A stretch of 64,000 nucleotides of DNA from a virus. Within the stretch, counting starts at the first letter, position 1. Each line of letters starts with the position of its first letter. The translations under genes and the position numbers were made by a program. The stretch covers positions 1 to 64,000 of IMG/VR virus record IMGVR_UViG_3300032282_005937, one strand, 5' to 3'. Positions 11,413-46,731 of the stretch are shown here, piece after piece. Below the pieces are notes generated by a model. The model ran no database searches. It worked only from the letters and a program-made list of their open reading frames with translations, and had not been told where the DNA came from.

Positions 11413-12024
11413 ATGCAAACTGAAAATTCTTTAGAAATAGTTAGAAAAATAACCAAAACAGTTCCAAGCTTTCATCATCACTATCATATTCTTTATGATC
11501 TTGCCAATACTATAGAAAAAGAAAAAATAACATATCTTGAAATAGGTGCATATGGTGGTGCATCTGCAATACTTATGCTCCATAATGAAAAAGTAAAAAA
11601 AGTTTTTTCAATTGATATAGGTCATCCTATAAAAGAAAAAACTGTATTAAAAAATGTTTCTGATTTTTTTAAAGACGATAGATATAATTATATTGTTGGA
11701 GATTCTGCAAACAATAAAGTAAAAGAATCCCTTTTAAGTAAAACAAAAGAAGTAGACATTCTTTTTATAGATGGTAGTCACGAATACAACTATGTTTTAA
11801 AAGATTTTGAAAATTATTCACCTATTGTTAGTAAGGGTGGATTTATAGTATTTGATGATTATAATTGCAATATTTGCACACAAGTTAAACCAGCAGTTAA
11901 TGAAATAGTTAAAAAAATAAATGAAAAAGATTTTATAATAATTGGAACATTAAAAAATGTTTGTAATGCTCACCCAAAAGAATTTGAAGATGGGAATTGT
12001 TTTATAATTCAAAAGGTTGTGTGA
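11413..12024 (+). CDS. class I SAM methyltransferase (Methyltransf_24 type)
   Basis: 203 residues. It contains YLEIGAYGGASAILM as the SAM glycine loop, VFSIDIG as the second acidic strand and DILFIDGSHEYNYVLKDFE followed by FIVFDDYN. These are typical of the Methyltransf_24/CmcI-like group, which modifies sugars and secondary metabolites. It differs clearly in sequence from the preceding methyltransferase, so the two probably act at different positions. The next gene starts right at its end. Confidence 0.85.
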   Translation: MQTENSLEIVRKITKTVPSFHHHYHILYDLANTIEKEKITYLEIGAYGGASAILMLHNEKVKKVFSIDIGHPIKEKTVLKNVSDFFKDDRYNYIVGDSANNKVKESLLSKTKEVDILFIDGSHEYNYVLKDFENYSPIVSKGGFIVFDDYNCNICTQVKPAVNEIVKKINEKDFIIIGTLKNVCNAHPKEFEDGNCFIIQKVV

Positions 12025-12025
12025 A

Positions 12026-12736
12026 ATGATAACAGTATATGGCCTTTGTTATAGAATATTAGACTACGCAAAAAAAACCGTTGATCGATTAAGGGAAACA
12101 GCTTCAGAAGATTTTAATTTTGTTTGCATAGAATCAAAATCTTGTAATTCTGAAAAATTTTTACCTTGGGCACTAGAAGAATTAAAAAATAAAAAAATAC
12201 AAAGATTTCTTGCGTGTACAACAAATTGTAGATTATATGGATTTAGATATGCTCTTGAAAATTTTCCACCAGATGATTCTGAAGATTTTTTTGTTTTAAC
12301 AGAACTAGATGTGTTAGTTCCAAAAAATGTTGACTGGATAAAAGAAATAAGAAAAAAAATGGAAAAAAATGTAATTTCTGGATTTACTTTGAGTAGTGAA
12401 AACTATGTTAAACCAAATACTGGATGGAATGAAAAAGAAAACATTGAAAACAAAAATTTTGGAGTTTGGTTAATGGCTATTAAAAAAAATATATTATTAG
12501 AAGGACTTAAAACATTAAAGGGCGAATTAACAGATGTTAAAATTTTATCTTTTATGTCAAAAAATGGAAAAAAAGATATTATAGATCAAAAACTTTATCA
12601 CTTAGGTTGGAATTCGTGGAAAGATGATCCTGATTATTGGGATTACAAATTAAAAACTATGGATAGATGGCAAACCAAAAAATGTAAAAGTGAAGAATCT
12701 ATAATTACAGAATTTAAAAATTACGAAAACATATAA
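12026..12736 (+). CDS. glycosyltransferase-like protein, first of a tandem pair
   Basis: 236 residues, ATG at 12026 overlapping the previous gene's end. The first strand (MITVYGLCYRILDYA) and the acidic FFVLTELDVLVPKNVDW segment at the DXD place fit a GT-A fold. YHLGWNSWKDDPDYW is at the C-terminus. It is closely related to the next gene across its whole length, including a stretch of near-identical DNA (about 12318-12390). The pair arose by duplication. Donor and acceptor unknown. Confidence 0.65.
   Translation: MITVYGLCYRILDYAKKTVDRLRETASEDFNFVCIESKSCNSEKFLPWALEELKNKKIQRFLACTTNCRLYGFRYALENFPPDDSEDFFVLTELDVLVPKNVDWIKEIRKKMEKNVISGFTLSSENYVKPNTGWNEKENIENKNFGVWLMAIKKNILLEGLKTLKGELTDVKILSFMSKNGKKDIIDQKLYHLGWNSWKDDPDYWDYKLKTMDRWQTKKCKSEESIITEFKNYENI
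12318..12390. repeat. segment nearly identical to about 13045-13117
   Basis: DNA of the tandem paralogues at 12026 and 12756 is almost the same here (it encodes PKNVDWIKEIRKKMEKNVIS in both). The rest of the genes is more diverged, so this part was copied recently or is kept alike by gene conversion. Confidence 0.7.
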
Positions 12737-12755
12737 ATTTAAAAGGTAACATGAA

Positions 12756-13463
12756 ATGATAACTGTGTATGGTATTTGCTATAGAATATTAGATTATGCA
12801 GAAAAAACAGTAGATAGACTAAGAAAAACAGCTTCAGAAGATTTTAATCTTATTTGTGTAGAGTCAAAATCTTGTAATTCTGAAAAATTTCTTCCTTGGG
12901 CATTAAAAGAATTAGAAAACAAAAAAATACAAATGTTTATAGCATCAAGCACAAATTGTCGTGGCTATGGATTAAAATGGGCTGTTGAAAATTTTCCACC
13001 TGATGACTCTGAAGATTTTTTTGTTTTAACAGATTTAGATCTTTTGGTTCCAAAAAATGTTGATTGGATAAAAGAAATAAGAAAAAAAATGGAAAAAAAT
13101 GTAATTTCTGGATTTACTTTAAGTAATGAAAATTATGTTCATCCAAATTCTGGATGGAATGAAAACCAAAATATATCAAAAAAATTATTTGGGGTATGGC
13201 TTATGTCAGTAAAAACACAGATTTTTTTAAACATATATCAAAATAAAAATATTAATTTAATAGATTCAGACATTATTTCAAGCATGACTAACTATGGGGA
13301 TAAAGATATAATTGATTCTAAATTGTATCATCTTGGATGGAACTCATGGAAAGACGATGAATCTTATTGGAATGATAAAATAACTAAAAATAATTGGGAT
13401 TCAAGAAAAGATGTTGACGAAACTGATGAAGTTCCAATATTTAAGGTATATAAAAACAAATGA
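12756..13463 (+). CDS. glycosyltransferase-like protein, second of a tandem pair
   Basis: 235 residues, paralogous to the gene at 12026. Both keep ESKSCNSEKFLPWAL, the NFPPDDSEDFFVLT core, an acidic Asp-x-Asp (TDLDLLVPKNVDW) and the C-terminal YHLGWNSWKDD. They differ mainly between residues 150 and 180 and at the C-terminus, which may set acceptor choice. It overlaps the ATP-grasp gene by 4 bases. Confidence 0.65.
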   Translation: MITVYGICYRILDYAEKTVDRLRKTASEDFNLICVESKSCNSEKFLPWALKELENKKIQMFIASSTNCRGYGLKWAVENFPPDDSEDFFVLTDLDLLVPKNVDWIKEIRKKMEKNVISGFTLSNENYVHPNSGWNENQNISKKLFGVWLMSVKTQIFLNIYQNKNINLIDSDIISSMTNYGDKDIIDSKLYHLGWNSWKDDESYWNDKITKNNWDSRKDVDETDEVPIFKVYKNK

Positions 13464-14747: not shown

Positions 14748-15023
14748 ATGAAATATCTTTATGAAATATGGGTACGCATAGAAGAAAAAAATAAAAAAAA
14801 TAAAGCTTCTATAGATAAGAATGGAAGTTGTTGCATTGCATTATGTGCTTCATCAAACAAGGAAGCTCTCCTTCTTTTGCAAGAAGTACTTTTAAGTTGT
14901 GATAATAGGCCGATAGGAAATAAAAAGAAAATAAAGCACTTTAGGTTGAAAGACAGTTGCTCTAAGTATATATTTCTTCTGTGTAAGGAAAATGTCGAAA
15001 GTTATAAAAGAGCATGTGATTAA
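14748..15023 (+). CDS. hypothetical protein
   Basis: 91 residues with Cys pairs (GSCCIALCASS; CSKYIFLLC) and a basic, Lys-rich N-terminal third. No family recognised. It is followed by the gene-free structured stretch at 15029-15320. Confidence 0.55.
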   Translation: MKYLYEIWVRIEEKNKKNKASIDKNGSCCIALCASSNKEALLLLQEVLLSCDNRPIGNKKKIKHFRLKDSCSKYIFLLCKENVESYKRACD

Positions 15024-15028
15024 AAGCA

Positions 15029-15320
15029 ACTGCGTTAACAATTCAAGCATACGGTTCTTCCGCAGTTTTTATACCGAAATGAATCACATCACCAGGGGAT
15101 AACCCCAAGGATTGCCAGAGAGTAGCCAAACTCTCAACAGGGTGGCACGAAATAGTTTAGAAAGATTATTATACTAGAATTTGAGTGACCACTTCTCATA
15201 CTAGACCTGATACTTTACAAGTACCTTCTTTCTAATGTCCTATTTGGTCAAAATTTTATAACAAACTGCTAGTTCTAGGAACTTGCTGGTAGTAGTACTA
15301 TCAGGGAGAAGAAGTGGCCT
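15029..15320 (+). ncRNA. candidate structured non-coding RNA in a 300-base gene-free stretch
   Basis: No coding frame of useful length occurs between 15024 and 15325, and base composition is visibly richer in G+C than around it. Paired elements: AACTGCG (15029-15035) with CGCAGTT (15061-15067) followed by T's; GGGG/CCCC at 15095-15106 with a 4-base loop; GAGAGT/ACTCTC at 15118-15135, enclosed by GCCA/TGGC (15114-15117 with 15143-15146); CCTGATA (15206-15212) with TATCAGG (15299-15305), nested inside GACCACTTCT (15187-15196) with AGAAGTGGCC (15310-15319, one mismatch); and AGTTC/GAACT (15271-15283). The nested long-range helices argue for a real fold. Strand is chosen from the T-run after the first stem and is uncertain. 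It matches no RNA class I know. Confidence 0.5.
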
Positions 15321-15325
15321 ATTGA

Positions 15326-15610
15326 TTATAACAAGTCTGCTGCTATATCAGAAAAAAACCAAACAACACTTTTTTCAATAAAACCTTTAGAATTAAAATC
15401 GTTTGCGTTTTTTCCAAGTATTGATAGCAATGAAATAAATTCTGATTCTGATATAATTCGATTTAAATAAGATTTTCTTGTTATTTTTAACAGTAAATCA
15501 AAAGTTTCATTTGAACAAATGTTGTTTTTTGAGATAGAATTAAGTATTGCTGTTGAGTTTGAAAGTTTTTTTGTTAACTTTTTACAAGCATAAGTTATTC
15601 TATTTTTCAA
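15326..15610 (-). CDS. hypothetical protein
   Basis: 94 residues from a TTG start with an AAGGA box about 8 bases upstream on the minus strand. Sequence is helical and reads like a real protein (SNETFDLLLKITRKSYLN; SEFISLLSILGKNANDF). No family recognised. It diverges from the GNAT gene at 15634 and its 3' end borders the structured stretch. Confidence 0.5.
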   Translation of the reverse strand: MKNRITYACKKLTKKLSNSTAILNSISKNNICSNETFDLLLKITRKSYLNRIISESEFISLLSILGKNANDFNSKGFIEKSVVWFFSDIAADLL

Positions 15611-15633
15611 AGTTATTTTCCTTGAGGTTTATA

Positions 15634-16137
15634 ATGGCTAAAAAGAAAAAACAAATTTCAAGTGAAATAAAACTTCTTTTAAAAAAGAACCTAAGATCTA
15701 TAGTAGAAATAGAAAAGAAAAATTGCACTATAGAAGATCCAGATTTTGGAGAAATGGTTTCAAAAAAAGCTTGGAACTCGTCTAATTTTGTTGATTTTGT
15801 TAAAAAAAAGAATACATATAGTTACACAATAAGCGAAGGTGTATTAATTATTGGTTTTTTGCTTTTTGAAGTTAAAGAAAATGAATTATTAATTGAAAGA
15901 ATATGCATAGACAAAGATTTTAGAAGATCGGGATTTGGAAAAGAATTTTTAGATTTTATATACGCAAAAAAATATAGAAATAAAATTGTTTTTTATTGTA
16001 AAGAAGATGATGTTGTTACTATTAAATTTTTTAAGAAAAATGATTTTGTAGCAAGTTTAGAAAAAAATTATTTTGATATTGATAATGATGCAATCAAGTT
16101 TACAAAGGAGATTTTTTATGAAGAAAACAAAAGGTAA
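15634..16137 (+). CDS. GNAT-family N-acetyltransferase
   Basis: 167 residues. The start at 15634 is preferred over an upstream in-frame codon because a GAGG box precedes it and the upstream extension overlaps a divergent gene. The acetyl-CoA signature is clear: LLIERICIDKDFRRSGFGKEFLDF (R-R-S-G-F-G as the pyrophosphate loop), followed by YCKEDDVVTIKFFKKNDF, the usual late beta-bulge region of RimI-like enzymes. It could acetylate a protein N-terminus, an amino sugar or a small molecule. Its 3' end overlaps the zinc-ribbon gene by 20 bases. Confidence 0.85.
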   Translation: MAKKKKQISSEIKLLLKKNLRSIVEIEKKNCTIEDPDFGEMVSKKAWNSSNFVDFVKKKNTYSYTISEGVLIIGFLLFEVKENELLIERICIDKDFRRSGFGKEFLDFIYAKKYRNKIVFYCKEDDVVTIKFFKKNDFVASLEKNYFDIDNDAIKFTKEIFYEENKR

Positions 16138-33719: not shown

Positions 33720-34119
33720 ATATGAATCTAGGCATGGTGGTGGTTGGATAACTCCAGCACAATTTTTGGCTGAGTTAATGTGTGAGCGTTTTGCCAAACA
33801 AAATCGTCAAGACATACCTCCAAAATTTTGGGATAAACAACCTTGGAAAAAAGAGTTTTTTAAACAGCTTTCTTTAGCAAATAAGCTTTTAGAAAAATAT
33901 GATCCAGCATTAGTTTCTAAGGCTTTAAGATCACAAGAAGGTAAAAAAATATTTTCTTTAGGTGCTCCTTGGCTAATAAAACTTATAGAGTTTGAAGAAT
34001 ACAAGTTTAAGGAAGTAGACGAGAAGAAGGTTGAACAGGTAGAATCTCTTCCAGTTAAAATCTCTTTTGTTTCAAAGAAGTCAACACTAAGTAAGTTAAA
34101 GGATATTGAAAATGAGTGA
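33691..34119 (+). CDS. conserved phage hypothetical protein
   Basis: 142 residues. A disordered start (RSSNSRYESRHGGGW) precedes ITPAQFLAELMCERFAKQN, IPPKFWDKQPWKKEFFKQL and a helical region. It lies immediately upstream of uvsX and shares its transcript; in other phages proteins of this kind accompany recombination genes. Function unknown. Confidence 0.65.
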   Translation: MAKERSSNSRYESRHGGGWITPAQFLAELMCERFAKQNRQDIPPKFWDKQPWKKEFFKQLSLANKLLEKYDPALVSKALRSQEGKKIFSLGAPWLIKLIEFEEYKFKEVDEKKVEQVESLPVKISFVSKKSTLSKLKDIENE

Positions 34120-36097
34120 TGAAGTAGAAAAAATAATTAAAGAAGTATCAAAACAATATGGTGCTGGTATTGCAATAAATGCAAGCGATTTGTTAGATGA
34201 AGAAAAGCATGTTATACCGCTTTCACCATCTTTAAATCTTGGTCTGCATGGCGGTATACCAGAAGGTTCTTGGGTCACATGTTCTGGTCATCCTAAAAGC
34301 GGAAAAGAACAACCTATATCTGCTCTCGTTTACACACCAAACGGCCCTAAACCAATTGGTGAGTTAATGTTAGGCGAGCATGTATGTACACATGATGGCA
34401 ATTCGGCAGAAATTCTTGCTATTTATCCACAAGGTATTAAAGATGTTTATCGAATAAGTTTTTCAGATGGAACATTTGCAGAGTGTGGATTGGATCATCT
34501 TTGGTCAATCAAAACAAAAGACCATAAAGATTTTGTTGTTAGACAACTTAAAGATTTTATTAATGACATTTATTACAAGTCTGGAAAAGTGGCAAAATAC
34601 TCTATACCAATTTCTACTCCCGCAATGTTTAATGAAACAACCAAAGAAATTTCTCCATACATCATGGGTATTTTTCTTGGTGCTGGAATATTTGGTAAAA
34701 ATTCAACATATGTAACTCTTGAAAAAGATTTAGATATTATGAATGAAATGTCTGATAGCGATAAAAAATATATAGTTTATGACAATCAATTCAAAAAAAT
34801 CTCTGTTAAAAATTCCAATCCTTTTATAAAGCTTGGGCTTTTTAACATTGCAAACAACCAAAAGTTTATTCCCCCAAAATATTTGTTTGATGGCGTTTAT
34901 AATCGAACAAGATTAATAACTGGCATTTTAAAAGTTGCTGGATATTTAACTAAAGATAAAAGCTTAACCATTACAGTATCAAGTCAAAGACTTGCAGAAG
35001 ACATTGTTACATTGGTACAATCTTTAGGTGGAATAGGCAATTATTCTGTCCACAAGAACAAAGACTCAAAAAGATATGTCTGCATATTAAAACTTAACAT
35101 TTTACAAAAAAGAAAAAATAAATTTGAAAGAAAAATAATATCTGTAAAAAAAGTAAGAAAAGAAGAGTGTGTTTGTATTACTATAAATACAAAAGATGGC
35201 TTGTATTTAACCAACAACTTTATAGTTACACACAACACCTTAACCTCACTTTCTTTTGCTGCACAATGTCAAAAACCTGAGAATGGTGGTAGACATGTGT
35301 ATTATCTGAACATTGAAGGTCGATTAAAGCCTATGAATCTAAGGGGCATAGCTGGCTTAAATTTAGACAAGATGACAATCTATAGGTCTACTCAAGATAA
35401 GATTCTTTCCGCAAAGGACTACCTAAATTTGGCCTTTAAAGCTATTAATACCCACCCAGGAAGTTTGATCATCATAGATAGTGTTTCTGCCTTATGTGAT
35501 GAAAAAGAGATGGATGAGGGTATTGGGTATGAAAATAGAGGGGCTGGCAATAAGCTTTTTGCTGGTTTTTGCAGACAAGCAGCCAATATAGTGCCAGTAC
35601 AAAACTGTATTGTTTGGGCGATTATGCATTTAACCCAATCTCAGGGCATGTATGGTGGTTATACAGAAAAAGGTTCTAGAACATTACAGTATCAAGCAGA
35701 TGTTCAAATGAGAGTTAAATTTGATAAAGCTTGGAATGTTGGCATAGAGGGTAAAGAAAAACAAATTGGACAACAGGTTCATTGGTTAATTGAATCTTGT
35801 GCTTTAGGCTCACCAGGAATGGAAATTGATAGCTATATTCGTTACGGTATTGGTATTGATAATACATATGAAGCTATAAATCTTGGTTGTCAGCTTGGTC
35901 TTATAGCTAAAGCTGGTGCTTGGATGACACTTGATTTTATGCAAAGACATTTAAAATTGTTAGATTCAAAAGAATGGGATGATGCAACAATAAGAAAAGT
36001 TAAAACTCAAGGTACAGAAAAGCTTTATAGACTATTACTTGAAAATCCTTTATGGGTAAAAGTTCTTGAGCAAGAAATAAAAGGTCTTTTATCATGA
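34112..36097 (+). CDS. uvsX: RecA/UvsX-type recombinase interrupted by an intein in the Walker A motif
   Basis: 661 residues as translated, 351 after removal of a 310-residue intein. The start at 34112 follows an AAAGGA box. N-extein: residues 1-65 ending GHPKSGK, the first part of the P-loop. C-extein begins TLTSLSF, restoring GHPKSGKT. Later motifs are SLIIIDSVSAL (Walker B), NCIVWAIMHLTQSQGMYGG (L1/L2-like DNA-binding region) and YQADVQMRV. The size and motifs fit phage recombinases. It would coat ssDNA and drive strand exchange for recombination-dependent replication. Without splicing the P-loop is disrupted and the enzyme inactive. Confidence 0.9.
   Translation: MSDEVEKIIKEVSKQYGAGIAINASDLLDEEKHVIPLSPSLNLGLHGGIPEGSWVTCSGHPKSGKEQPISALVYTPNGPKPIGELMLGEHVCTHDGNSAEILAIYPQGIKDVYRISFSDGTFAECGLDHLWSIKTKDHKDFVVRQLKDFINDIYYKSGKVAKYSIPISTPAMFNETTKEISPYIMGIFLGAGIFGKNSTYVTLEKDLDIMNEMSDSDKKYIVYDNQFKKISVKNSNPFIKLGLFNIANNQKFIPPKYLFDGVYNRTRLITGILKVAGYLTKDKSLTITVSSQRLAEDIVTLVQSLGGIGNYSVHKNKDSKRYVCILKLNILQKRKNKFERKIISVKKVRKEECVCITINTKDGLYLTNNFIVTHNTLTSLSFAAQCQKPENGGRHVYYLNIEGRLKPMNLRGIAGLNLDKMTIYRSTQDKILSAKDYLNLAFKAINTHPGSLIIIDSVSALCDEKEMDEGIGYENRGAGNKLFAGFCRQAANIVPVQNCIVWAIMHLTQSQGMYGGYTEKGSRTLQYQADVQMRVKFDKAWNVGIEGKEKQIGQQVHWLIESCALGSPGMEIDSYIRYGIGIDNTYEAINLGCQLGLIAKAGAWMTLDFMQRHLKLLDSKEWDDATIRKVKTQGTEKLYRLLLENPLWVKVLEQEIKGLLS
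34307..35236 (+). mobile_element. class 3-type intein with degenerate LAGLIDADG domain
   Basis: 310 residues between Lys65 and Thr of the recombinase P-loop. Position 1 is Glu, not Cys/Ser. Block A is ALVYTPNGPKPIGELMLGEH. Block B reads AECGLDHLWSI, with His64 and Trp66. Block F has ECVCITIN with Cys290, and block G is FIVTHN with Thr308-His309-Asn310, followed by extein Thr. Trp at B:12, Cys at F:4 and Thr at G:5 are the WCT residues of class 3 inteins, in which the block F Cys replaces the missing first nucleophile. The homing endonuclease motifs YIMGIFLGAG and RLITGILKVAG have Ala126 and Ala211 where catalytic Asp is expected, so DNA cutting is probably lost. Confidence 0.88.
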
Positions 36098-42291: not shown

Positions 42292-44205
42292 ATGAATAAT
42301 TGGACAGCACTACATTGTCATTCTCATTACAGTCTTTTAGATGGTTTAACAAAGCCAGAATCTATGGCAAAAAGAGCCAAAAGCCTTGGACACAAGTCTA
42401 TAGCTCTTACTGATCATGGAACTATTTCTGGCTCTATTTCTTTTAATAAGGCATGTGTTGCAGAAGAAATAAAACCAATAATAGGATGCGAGTTTTACAT
42501 ATGTAATCAAAGTGCTTTAATTCATGATAAAACTAATTCTAAAAATTCTCATTTGTGCGTTCTTGCTAAAAATATTTCTGGCTGGTCTGAGCTTATAAAG
42601 CTATCATCTTTATCAAATAATAAAGATTATTTTTATTATAAGCCTAGACTAAGCTTGGAAGATTTTGCACCATACTCAAAAAACCTAATAGCATTCTCTG
42701 GACACCCAGGAACCCAATTGGCTAGATGCATTTTTCCAGATGAAGCATATAAATGTTCTAGTCCAGAAGAAGCAAGAGCTTTAATTAAAGATGATTGGTT
42801 TGAAGAGTCTAAAAAGCTATGTTCTAAACACCAAGATATTTTTGGCAAAGAGAACTTTTTTATTGAAATACAACTTTTTGATAAAGACAATCTACACTGT
42901 TCTGTAGTTCTTGCTGAATGTCTTAGAAAACTATCTAAAGAAACAGGTATTAAGGCAATAGCTACTCCTGATGCTCATTACGCTAAACAAGAGGATGCTT
43001 CTGATCAAAGAATAATCTTGTGTGCATCTATGGAAACAACTCTTTCTAAAGTAAGGTCGTCTTTAGATAAACACGAAGATTTTGGATTATCTAGTTTCTT
43101 TAAATCAAATAGATATTACATTCCATCTACTGAAGAGATTTTAGCCCTTCATGAACCAGAAGAATTAAAAAACTGTTTGTTGATTGAAGAGATGTGCGAG
43201 AATTATTCTTTAACAAAAAAGTCGGTTCTTCCAAGTTTTGAATGTCCAGAAAGTAAAAATGAACACGATTATTTAAGAGAGCTTTGCAGAAATGGTTGGA
43301 AAGAAAAGTTTTCAGATTTAGAAAAAGATTCATCAAAGTTTGAAAATTATGTTGCAAGAATTAAAAATGAGCTTTCTGTTATAGGCGATGCTGGTCTTGA
43401 AGGTTACTTTTTAATTGTTCAAGATTATTGTAATTGGGCTAGAAAACAAGGATGGTTAACAGGAAGAGGGCGTGGATCAGGTGCTGGTTGTATGGTTTCT
43501 TATTTGCTTGGAATAACTCAAGTAGATCCAATTGAGCACAATTTAGTTTTTGAGCGTTTCTACAATGCTGGAAGAAATGTTCCAGGTCATGTAAGTCTTC
43601 CCGATATAGATTGTGATTTTCCAATTACAAAAAGAGACAAGGTTATTGACTATATTAAATCAAAGTATAACGAAGAAAATGTTTCGCAAATGATAACATA
43701 CAGTAGGATGCAGGGCAGGGGTGCTTTAAAAGATGTGTTAAGGGCACATGGTTTTTCGTTTGATGAAAGTAATGCTATTACAAAAAATATACCTGATGAA
43801 GCTGAAATATCTGAACAGCTTCAAGAAATGAAGGAAGATGGTGGAGAATCATCAATCATTGGTTGGGCATTAGAAAATATCCCTTCAAAGCTTAAAGATT
43901 ATTGCGAGATAGACGAACAAGGTAACATAACAGGAAAGTTGTCAAAAGAGTTTTCACAAGCGATTAGACTTGAAGGAACTAAGCGTAGTCAAGGAAAACA
44001 TGCTGCTGGAATTGTTATAAGTCACACTCCCTTAAAAGATATTTGCCCTATGATCTATGATAAAAAGAATAAGCAAATGATTGCTGGTCTTGAAATGTCA
44101 GATCTTGAATCAATTGGTTTAGTTAAGTTTGATATTTTGGGAGTTGCTGTTTTAGATAAAATAATGGGCTGTATAAATTTATTGAAAGGAAAAGAAAATG
44201 AGTGA
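42292..44205 (+). CDS. dnaE: DNA polymerase III alpha, N-terminal half (PHP and palm)
   Basis: 637 residues. PHP domain: LHCHSHYSLLDGLTKPESMA, ALTDHGTISG and TPDAHYAK. Palm: GLEGYFLIVQDYCNWARKQG, GRGRGSGAGCMVSYLLGIT, the catalytic LPDIDCDF (two Asp), then GTKRSQGKHAAGIVIS, and GLVKFDILG with the third catalytic Asp. The protein ends 20 residues later, where single-chain DnaE would continue to the fingers domain. The missing part is encoded at 45109. All three catalytic Asp are here. The polymerase must assemble from two chains, or splice post-translationally; no split-intein sequence is visible at this end. Confidence 0.92.
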   Translation: MNNWTALHCHSHYSLLDGLTKPESMAKRAKSLGHKSIALTDHGTISGSISFNKACVAEEIKPIIGCEFYICNQSALIHDKTNSKNSHLCVLAKNISGWSELIKLSSLSNNKDYFYYKPRLSLEDFAPYSKNLIAFSGHPGTQLARCIFPDEAYKCSSPEEARALIKDDWFEESKKLCSKHQDIFGKENFFIEIQLFDKDNLHCSVVLAECLRKLSKETGIKAIATPDAHYAKQEDASDQRIILCASMETTLSKVRSSLDKHEDFGLSSFFKSNRYYIPSTEEILALHEPEELKNCLLIEEMCENYSLTKKSVLPSFECPESKNEHDYLRELCRNGWKEKFSDLEKDSSKFENYVARIKNELSVIGDAGLEGYFLIVQDYCNWARKQGWLTGRGRGSGAGCMVSYLLGITQVDPIEHNLVFERFYNAGRNVPGHVSLPDIDCDFPITKRDKVIDYIKSKYNEENVSQMITYSRMQGRGALKDVLRAHGFSFDESNAITKNIPDEAEISEQLQEMKEDGGESSIIGWALENIPSKLKDYCEIDEQGNITGKLSKEFSQAIRLEGTKRSQGKHAAGIVISHTPLKDICPMIYDKKNKQMIAGLEMSDLESIGLVKFDILGVAVLDKIMGCINLLKGKENE

Positions 44206-44467
44206 AAAAGAAGAAATTGAATTAATAGCAAAACTAGTATCTCAACAAATGGGATTAGTTCAAGCTGTATCAGAATGTCAAAATTCAAAAAATCAACTTT
44301 CTTTACAATTTATAAAAATACTTAAAGCAATTGTTCTAAAAAACAACGGTAGTTTTATTATAGAAAAAGAATTTTTTGAGTCTGCTGATGACAATGATTT
44401 TAAATTAGATATCACAACTGATGATGAAGAATCAATCGTTTTACAATTTTTAGAGAATGAGGAATAA
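44198..44467 (+). CDS. small acidic hypothetical protein
   Basis: 89 residues with a helical first half (IELIAKLVSQQMGLVQAVSE) and an acidic C-terminus (DITTDDEESIVLQFLENEE). It overlaps the dnaE-N gene by 8 bases and is followed directly by dnaQ. It could be a small subunit stabilising the split polymerase, but this is guesswork from position. Confidence 0.6.
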   Translation: MSEKEEIELIAKLVSQQMGLVQAVSECQNSKNQLSLQFIKILKAIVLKNNGSFIIEKEFFESADDNDFKLDITTDDEESIVLQFLENEE

Positions 44468-45106
44468 ATGTATAGTAATACAATTATGGTTTTTGATTTT
44501 GAAACAGGTTCTTTAGATATAAATAAGTGTGAAGTAATTCAAGTTGCAGCTATGGCAATAAATAGAAAAACTCTTGAACCAATCAAAGATGGTATTTTTG
44601 AAACATTGATAAAGCCAAGAGACTTTAATAATCTTCAAGATGAAGCTCTTGCAATAAATAAGAAAACAAGGGAAGAATTGAAGCTTGCACCAAGTATTGA
44701 TGCTGTTTGGAAAAAGCTTGCAGATTTTATTTCAATGTTTAATAACGGCAAAGGAAATATTTCTGCACCAATTCCAGCAGGAAAAAACATAAGACATTTT
44801 GATATGCCTATTTTCCAAAGAGTTTGCTCAGAACTTGGTTATGTAGATAAGAATGGAAATCAGAATTTATTAAATAGAAGAAGTATGTATGACCTTGATG
44901 AAATAATGATGTTATGGTTTGATAACACTACAGTAGTTCCAAACTATAAGATGGATACACTTAGAGATTTCTTTGGATTATCTAAAGCTAATGCTCATGA
45001 TGCTTTAACTGATGTTATACAGACTTCTGATATTATTTTACATTTTTTAAAATTGCACAGAAGCATTTTTCCAAAAATTAAATTTAAAGATGCATTTAGA
45101 AAGTAA
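44468..45106 (+). CDS. dnaQ: DnaQ-like DEDDh 3'-5' exonuclease
   Basis: 212 residues. Exo I is MVFDFETGSL (Asp, Glu), Exo II is PAGKNIRHFDMPIFQ (Asp) and Exo III is NAHDALTDVIQT (His, Asp), with the His placing it in the DEDDh subclass of PolIII epsilon. It probably proofreads for the alpha subunit encoded around it. Its position between the two dnaE halves supports a physical complex. No domain beyond the exonuclease is seen, and the usual alpha-binding tail of bacterial epsilon is not obvious. Confidence 0.9.
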   Translation: MYSNTIMVFDFETGSLDINKCEVIQVAAMAINRKTLEPIKDGIFETLIKPRDFNNLQDEALAINKKTREELKLAPSIDAVWKKLADFISMFNNGKGNISAPIPAGKNIRHFDMPIFQRVCSELGYVDKNGNQNLLNRRSMYDLDEIMMLWFDNTTVVPNYKMDTLRDFFGLSKANAHDALTDVIQTSDIILHFLKLHRSIFPKIKFKDAFRK

Positions 45107-45108
45107 TT

Positions 45109-46731
45109 ATGAAATATTATAAGTTTGAATGTGGCTGTTCTTGGCCAATAATTGAAGAATCTAAGATAGAAGGTGCTTTACCATTAATGGAAGTTGATCC
45201 ATTAAAATTGCCATACTGCCAGTCAACTTGGGATTTGTTTGCCAGAGGCGATACAAAAGGCGTATTTCAGCTTGAATCAGATCTTGGTAAACAATGGAGC
45301 AAGCGATTAAGGCCAAAAAACGCAGAACATCTATCTGCCATTGGTGCATTAATTAGGCCAGGAACACTTCGTGCATTAGATGAAAACGGCATTAGTATGA
45401 CTGCTCACTATTGCAAAAGAGCCAACTTTGAAGAACCAGTTGAGTCATATCATCCTGTTGTTGATGAAATTTTGAAGTCAACATATGGATCATTGGTTTT
45501 TCAAGAACAAGCTATGGAGTTATCTAAGTCTGTAGCTGGCTTTACTCTGCAAGAAGCTGATAAGCTAAGAAAGGCTATGGGTAAAAAGCTTGCTAGTGAA
45601 ATGGCAAAATGTAAAAAATTGTTTATTGAGGGTGCTAAAAAAGTTGAAGTTGTAAGCGAAAAACAGGCTGAAGAAATATTTAGTTGGATTGAACAAAGTC
45701 AAAGGTATTCGTTCAATAAAAGTCACAGTTGCTGTTATGGTTTAACTGGATATGATACAGCTTATTTGAAAAGCCATTTTCCAGTTCAGTTTTATTGTAG
45801 TTGGTTATATTATGCAAAGGATAAGCTTGATTCTCAACTTGAGATCATGGATCTTGTTGAAGATGCAAGAAAGTTTAACATAGATGTTTTAGCACCAGAT
45901 GCTTTTAAACTAAATAAAAATTTTGCAACCGATGGTTTAAATATATGGTTTGGTATCACTGATATTAAAGGCATTGGTGAATCACAATTCAATAAACTTA
46001 AAGCATCTATGGAAAAGAACAAAGATAAGCTAAATACTTGGGAAAATTTTGTAGTATTTTGTTCTGATGAAATACCAAGTTCTACTATAATAAAACTAAT
46101 ATCTGTTGGTGGATTTAAAAGATATAATACATGTAGACAAAAGCTTTTAGCAGAATATAATTCTTGGGTACAGTTAACAGATAAAGAAAGAGAATGGATC
46201 AAAATTAATTTTACAGAATCTACTATGGCTGAATTAATATCTTCAGCAGCAAAACCAAAAAAGGAAAATGGTGGTTGCTCTAACCAGAACAGAGTATTGT
46301 TTTTGAAAGACTTAGCTAATTTGCTCATTAATCCACCATCTCCACACATTGATCTTCCTCAGTGGCTAATTTGGTCAGAAAAGGATGCTTTAGGCATTTC
46401 TTTGACTTGTAATGCAATTGATTCATGCGATACTGCACAAGCTAATACTACATGCAAAGAATTTTTAAATGGAAAAACTGGTTTTATGATTTTTGGAGTT
46501 GAAATACGAAGGTGCAAAGAAGTTGTAACAAAGGCTGGTAAATCTCCAGGATCTAAAATGGCTTTTATGTCTATATCAGACTCAACTGGAAAAGTGGATG
46601 ATGTAATATGTTTTCCAGACTCGTACAAAGATAGTTCGTCTTTGTTAAAAGAGGGCAACACTGTTTTAATTCATGGTGAAAAAAGCAGGGGCAGTGATTC
46701 TCTTTTGGTTAAAAAAGTTTTTCAAATTTAG
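45109..46731 (+). CDS. dnaE: DNA polymerase III alpha, C-terminal half (fingers, HhH, OB)
   Basis: 540 residues. After a short N-terminal extension with YKFECGCSW come the fingers motifs FARGDTKGVFQLES, IGALIRPGTL, TYGSLVFQEQAMELSKSV and LRKAMGKK, then IEQSQRYSFNKSHSCCYG, which is the region interrupted by split inteins in cyanobacterial DnaE but is intact here. A helix-hairpin-helix region (DIKGIGESQFNKL) and a C-terminal OB-fold (GFMIFGVEIRR; MAFMSISDSTGKVDDVICF) follow. It contains no catalytic Asp and needs the product of 42292. The four-gene order dnaE-N, small ORF, dnaQ, dnaE-C is compact and intact. Confidence 0.92.
   Translation: MKYYKFECGCSWPIIEESKIEGALPLMEVDPLKLPYCQSTWDLFARGDTKGVFQLESDLGKQWSKRLRPKNAEHLSAIGALIRPGTLRALDENGISMTAHYCKRANFEEPVESYHPVVDEILKSTYGSLVFQEQAMELSKSVAGFTLQEADKLRKAMGKKLASEMAKCKKLFIEGAKKVEVVSEKQAEEIFSWIEQSQRYSFNKSHSCCYGLTGYDTAYLKSHFPVQFYCSWLYYAKDKLDSQLEIMDLVEDARKFNIDVLAPDAFKLNKNFATDGLNIWFGITDIKGIGESQFNKLKASMEKNKDKLNTWENFVVFCSDEIPSSTIIKLISVGGFKRYNTCRQKLLAEYNSWVQLTDKEREWIKINFTESTMAELISSAAKPKKENGGCSNQNRVLFLKDLANLLINPPSPHIDLPQWLIWSEKDALGISLTCNAIDSCDTAQANTTCKEFLNGKTGFMIFGVEIRRCKEVVTKAGKSPGSKMAFMSISDSTGKVDDVICFPDSYKDSSSLLKEGNTVLIHGEKSRGSDSLLVKKVFQI

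Follow-up and report, generated by a model that had tools for sequence, protein, structure and literature searches.

What lies in the gap between two convergent reading frames, gene A on the plus strand and ORF B on the minus strand, in the 64,000-nt stretch of phage DNA analysed here (the window, a part of a 70,880-base virus record of IMG/VR)? A first-pass annotation had proposed a candidate large structured RNA at 15029–15320, describing three hundred bases without a gene and with raised GC content. The statement on the missing gene holds for the element itself, where at least five stop codons occur in each of the six frames and the longest open run comprises 37 codons; just downstream, a conserved minus-strand ORF of 94 aa begins. 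The GC content amounts to 38.7% in the element vs 25.8% across 12–18 kb, and only 0.9% of the 305-nt segments within 5–20 kb reach a value as high. Folding of the single sequence was not above chance on either strand (z -1.58 on the plus and -1.32 on the minus strand), and the proof of RNA structure is therefore comparative.

Close relatives of the locus were collected with two exact patterns, which yielded 12 IMG/VR contigs sharing a common gene context; one of them is identical to the window over the 1001 bases compared, and the remainder are approximately 94% identical. Among these relatives only two of the 305 sites of the element are variable (15242 and 15271) vs 90 of 634 flanking sites (Fisher p = 4e-14), the genes beside the near-invariant element evolving normally. 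The variability falls sharply at both ends of the element, which coincide with helix ends, namely the 5' strand of H1 and the 3' strand of H8 (Table 1). The span proposed earlier has accordingly to be replaced by the conservation boundaries, 15014–15318.

A further 19 copies, more distant and approximately 63–80% identical, were obtained by pattern search of IMG/VR phage contigs: L102, about 80% identical to the window element, was found with a gapped pattern, and a second pattern, anchored on the invariant hairpin H5, gave 18 further true copies with nhmmer E values from 1e-39 to 1e-47. The close and distant copies thus add up to 31 further sequences. Searches of GenBank phages and of plasmids yielded no true copy, and pattern scans of GTDB genomes gave no homologue: none of the ten GTDB pattern matches fitted the family profile, and these candidate cellular homologues were rejected. 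Likewise, blast, nhmmer and covariance model searches revealed no homologue in 55%-identical relatives, many of whose records are fragments. In all 12 records searched for this purpose, there was one full RNA copy per record. The records carrying the RNA reach 141.8 kb, and in the seven of them that include the corresponding region the RecA/UvsX-containing protein of the window is present at 68–69% identity. Within the collections searched, the RNA is a single-copy, vertically kept feature of one phage lineage, which consists of uncultured phages of roughly 110–140 kb.

Several other features of these genomes were observed in passing. The RecA/UvsX-containing protein (663 aa, window 34106–36097) resembles terminase/primase/helicase-loader-like ATPase profiles in its N-terminal part and RecA/UvsX in its C-terminal part, the combination being conserved at 53–100% in 46 loci. 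DNA polymerase III alpha (window 42292–46731) is split into two ORFs, 42292–44205 with the PHP and NTPase domains and 45109–46731 with the finger and HHH domains, between which lies a DnaQ-type exonuclease ORF (44468–45106; Pfam RNase_T, 5.5e-16); this order is the same in all relatives compared. Tandem related ORFs of 239 and 235 aa, about half identical to each other, occupy window positions 12017–13463, the second having no Pfam or PHROG match.

For the covariation analysis, 14 distinct copies were aligned with MAFFT on sequence alone, with no fitting to the structure; the model used has 12 helices and three pseudoknots and comprises the helices of Table 1 together with H10 and H11. The model kept 95.6% of the pair cells vs 37–45% when the partners were slid by 1–3 columns, and two-sided changes were found in 26 of the 74 pairs vs 3–7 after sliding and 10.9 in column shuffles; because the sequences are related, which inflates the cell counts, the slid control and the variety of pair types carry more weight than the shuffles. 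Most of the changes fall in H1, H3, H6 and H7, of which H6 and H7 belong to the two pseudoknots crossing H8/H9. There is one two-sided change in H8, one in H9 (in L102) and one across the three pairs of PK1; H4 and H5, being invariant, are untested by covariation. The hand-aligned helix types contain nine G-U and no A-C pairs, which identifies the plus strand as the selected one. A conserved RNA fold on the plus strand, independent of the next gene, is hereby shown.

Table 1. Position and supporting observations of the RNA element, its helices and the adjoining features (coordinates of the window).
Feature	Coordinates	Strand	Observations
Gene A, 91-aa basic protein (pI 9.2)	14748..15023	+	Reading frame intact in every homologous locus examined; always immediately 5' of the RNA
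Candidate promoter TTGAAA-17-TATATT, inside gene A	14946..14974	+	Start ~14981; 10/12 consensus
Whole RNA element	15014..15318	+	~305 nt; near-invariance among close relatives, 19 distant homologues, covariation
H1	15014..15021 / 15082..15089	+	Two-sided change in 5/8 pairs; 92% of cells paired
H2	15028..15034 / 15061..15067	+	100% paired; C-G to G-C in L126
PK1, pseudoknot from the H2 loop	15052..15054 / 15074..15076	+	Only 3 pairs; C-G to A-U in L102; 100% paired
H3, hairpin GGGG-AUAA-CCCC	15095..15106	+	4/4 pairs with a two-sided change somewhere; 100% paired
H4, UGCCA/UGGCA	15113..15117 / 15143..15147	+	Invariant, hence neither for nor against; 100% paired
H5, hairpin AGAGU-AGCCAA-ACUCU, inside H4	15119..15134	+	Invariant
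H6, 9 bp (window) to 12 bp (maximum in relatives)	15157..15165 / 15227..15235	+	8/12 columns with two-sided change; crosses H8 and H9
H7	15174..15177 / 15201..15204	+	Two-sided changes; loop contains the H8 5' strand (pseudoknot)
H8, 8 bp	15189..15196 / 15310..15317	+	100% paired; conserved block ends with the 3' strand
H9	15206..15212 / 15299..15305	+	95.5% paired; U-A to A-U in L102 (hand alignment needed)
ORF B, 94 aa, convergent	15326..15610	-	Open in all close relatives; third-position bias
GNAT acetyltransferase, next plus-strand gene	15634..16137	+	Pfam Acetyltransf_7, 2.3e-7

The fold consists of two parts. The 5' domain is composed of H1, H2 with its loop pseudoknot, H3 and H4/H5; in the 3' domain, H8 and H9 connect bases enclosed by H6 with bases outside it, and H8 also crosses H7. 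The strands of H7 vary as CUAG/CUAG, CUAAG/CUUAG, CUAGG/CCUAG and CUGAAA/UUUCAG, and the H8 pair 15191-15315 is A-U in four and C-G in ten sequences. The 3' hairpins H10 and H11 hold in the L119 clade and align poorly with the window clade, and they were left out of Table 1. Outside the helices, many unpaired bases of the RNA are invariant. Of the two long-range helices in the first-pass annotation, H9 is borne out as drawn, and the other (15187-15196/15310-15319) survives as the eight inner pairs of H8, its two outer pairs being lost, as 15188/15318 is an A-C combination in the window and 15319 falls beyond the conserved block. That annotation had included neither the 5' domain, which has a pseudoknot of its own, nor the additional 3'-domain pseudoknots; it also lacked the strand, the sharply defined ends and the constant gene neighbourhood.

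The Infernal search suggested earlier gave no match in the window at the gathering scores of Rfam 15, and at E values up to 5 neither the element nor three of its homologues matched a GOLLD, ROOL, intron or ribozyme family. The weak matches that did appear, such as STnc150 (E 0.0046) and mir-276 (E 0.017), were rejected, since they lay far below the gathering scores, are unrelated and did not recur among the homologues. The earlier view that the element is not a tmRNA, RNase P, 6S or SRP RNA or a group I intron agrees with the lack of matches to the respective Rfam models and of a tmRNA call by ARAGORN. A guide RNA of TnpB appears unlikely, since the TnpB zinc-ribbon domain was absent from the five records searched, where positive controls were detected; as regards an omega RNA of IscB/TnpB (HEARO) in general, no RNA-guided nuclease was found adjacent to the element, the IscB RRXRR search having no positive control.

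OLE RNA, which has small protein partners, belongs to bacterial chromosomes and is longer than the element of about 305 nt; the two are alike as structured RNAs adjoining a small protein gene and differ in that no sequence or model match connects them. The put RNA of phage HK022 and the EAR RNA are antitermination RNAs that act in cis and are found within long operons of phages or of polysaccharide genes, or in front of them; the element would resemble them if it acted in cis. They have about 70–125 nt and lack a 300-nt double-pseudoknot core. GOLLD and ROOL are large pseudoknotted orphan phage RNAs, GOLLD being mostly longer than 800 nt and located near tRNA islands, and ROOL, exemplified by the 659-nt env-120 RNA that forms a nanocage, being often near tRNA islands (PMC12286853). 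The element shares with GOLLD the character of a large pseudoknotted orphan RNA of phages or prophages with strong covariation, and with ROOL that of a phage-borne orphan RNA with multiple pseudoknots. It differs from both in the absence of an Rfam match and in its conserved block of 305 nt, the shorter length having been recognized already in the first-pass annotation, and also in its setting away from tRNA islands: no tRNA gene was detected in the window or in the related record G053, and the only one in the related record G004 lies about 24 kb from the RNA.

With covariation beyond the controls, non-coding character and homologues, the element is, on this comparative evidence, a new structured RNA family, which belongs among the orphan structured RNAs of phages and is neither GOLLD nor ROOL. 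The original observation is thereby confirmed as real and stronger than first claimed, with 31 further copies, compensatory changes in 26 of the 74 pairs, no coding capacity and no credible Rfam match.

The role of the RNA has to be considered against its gene neighbourhood. The stop codon of gene A lies within the first 3–16 nt of the element. The acetyltransferase is retained in all RNA loci examined that extend far enough, and a small CxxxC...CxxC protein is likewise found downstream where the locus is long enough. The region between the RNA and the acetyltransferase differs by clade: the window and L102 have the minus-strand ORF B there, the L119 clade a cupin gene and then B, and L140 nothing; L140 lacks ORF B, and its acetyltransferase begins about 95 nt past the RNA. 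In the window and its distant relatives, the starts of ORF B and of the acetyltransferase gene are about 24 nt apart (window 15326–15634), which leaves hardly any room for separate promoters. As for expression signals of the RNA, no intrinsic terminator-like site was seen, and a candidate promoter inside gene A, the best such site upstream, is suggestive only: its TTG codon is kept in 16 of 16 A genes, although TTG constitutes only 16% of the Leu codons, but promoter-like sites are not in excess region-wide, and the candidate is not significant by itself. A Bacteroidota-type promoter was dismissed, its pattern not being enriched in the window.

We slightly favor the reading that the element is a stand-alone non-coding RNA gene of about 305 nt on the plus strand, which is carried by one phage lineage and would act in trans via a bound partner. 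Such an RNA would be transcribed on its own or cut out of the gene A transcript, would persist as a compact molecule and would act in trans during infection, binding its partner through the invariant unpaired bases; a protein-binding scaffold or decoy appears to be the most likely mechanism, and the candidate partner is either a factor of the host or protein A, the basic protein encoded next to the RNA. We counted for this reading the covariation, the plus-strand pairing bias, the near-invariance, the changing downstream gene, the promoter-like site and the adjoining basic A, and against it the absence of a terminator-like site, the non-significance of the promoter-like site, the exchangeable A and the position of AGAAGGGG in the L119 clade. 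The putative trans-acting role is derived from the independence of the RNA from the downstream gene. Antisense action on the phage's own genome found no support, the best matches being within or barely above the shuffled background; an 18-nt match in G053 was not repeated in four other records.

A cis-acting leader is retained as a rather unlikely alternative; it would be a riboswitch or a put/EAR-type antitermination RNA through which the acetyltransferase and sugar-modification genes downstream are controlled at the level of transcription or translation. The genes on both sides of the RNA are sugar-related (glycosyltransferases, ATP-grasp, sulfotransferase), and in every locus that extends to the acetyltransferase the RNA is located ahead of it. 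Furthermore, in the L119 clade the cupin (Pfam Cupin_2) begins 10–12 nt past the RNA, and the 3' strand of H8, AGAAGGGG, lies 8 nt ahead of the cupin ATG, placed like a ribosome-binding site; H8 would then hide the ribosome-binding-like AAGGGG, and a local cis effect may occur in this clade. The fixed type of same-strand downstream gene characteristic of a cis riboswitch or leader is nevertheless not seen, as ORF B on the minus strand, the cupin or the acetyltransferase follows depending on the clade, and in the window clade and L102 there is no plus-strand gene for about 300 nt past the RNA, the opposite-strand ORF intervening. The 3' helix H8 is kept in all clades despite the differing downstream gene; this speaks against a simple leader of the adjoining gene, as does the missing terminator-like site. 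Given the variable downstream gene and the possible promoter inside gene A, the stand-alone RNA is preferred to a regulator of the gene that follows.

Protein A could also be dedicated to the RNA as its partner in an RNP comparable to the RNase P or OLE particles, which in our opinion is rather unlikely. The adjacency and overlap of A and the RNA are invariant, and the A proteins are small and basic (pI 9.2–9.6). The best AlphaFold2 model of protein A had a pLDDT of 87, three of the five models being poor. Foldseek gave no significant match to the model, and its eight best VIA-align matches were all archaeal/eukaryotic ribosomal protein LX/eL20, a weak resemblance whose Z values of 4.1–4.5 are within the usual background. 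Moreover, two types of A, with approximately 41–45% amino acid identity, occur beside near-identical RNAs. When L121 (1201–1473) is compared with L124 (2399–2680), the A genes display 62% nucleotide identity and the adjoining RNAs 98%; judged from the sequences, this is an exchange of gene A alleles with its edge at the RNA, and it speaks against a tightly coupled evolution of protein A and the RNA. Protein A is thus regarded as a possible partner.

Still more doubtful is the broader proposal of a new architectural class of phage RNA machine, in which the 305-nt double-pseudoknot RNA would target the host in trans, for example by serving as a decoy for one of the host's RNA-binding complexes or by being a new ribozyme, and might form an RNP with the LX-like protein A. 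That the RNA is a self-cleaving or self-splicing ribozyme is very unlikely: nested pseudoknots and many invariant unpaired bases would suit it, and the H6/H9 crossing recalls the P3/P7 crossing of group I introns, but no intron or ribozyme family was retrieved from Rfam and no interrupted gene is seen. In particular, a group I intron splicing gene A was rejected even though the frame rule fitted at 15017/15317, since the frame of the supposed exon 2 is interrupted by a stop in the relatives, and the coding signal and the real gene there are on the minus strand. A DNA-level element with a conservation unrelated to RNA, such as a site of replication or packaging or a hot spot of recombination, is scarcely credible, as the exchange of gene A alleles right at the element edge is outweighed by 26 compensatory pairs and nine G-U vs no A-C pairs, i.e., by selection for pairing in the RNA of one strand.

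Large structured phage RNAs are few, and a function is known for only a minority of them. The preferred stand-alone RNA is compact and has a complete secondary structure backed by covariation; its strand and ends are defined and 31 further sequences are available, which makes direct in vitro production, probing and structure solution possible. Its near-invariance beside normally evolving genes means that the phage needs this RNA, or that the partner of the RNA does not change.
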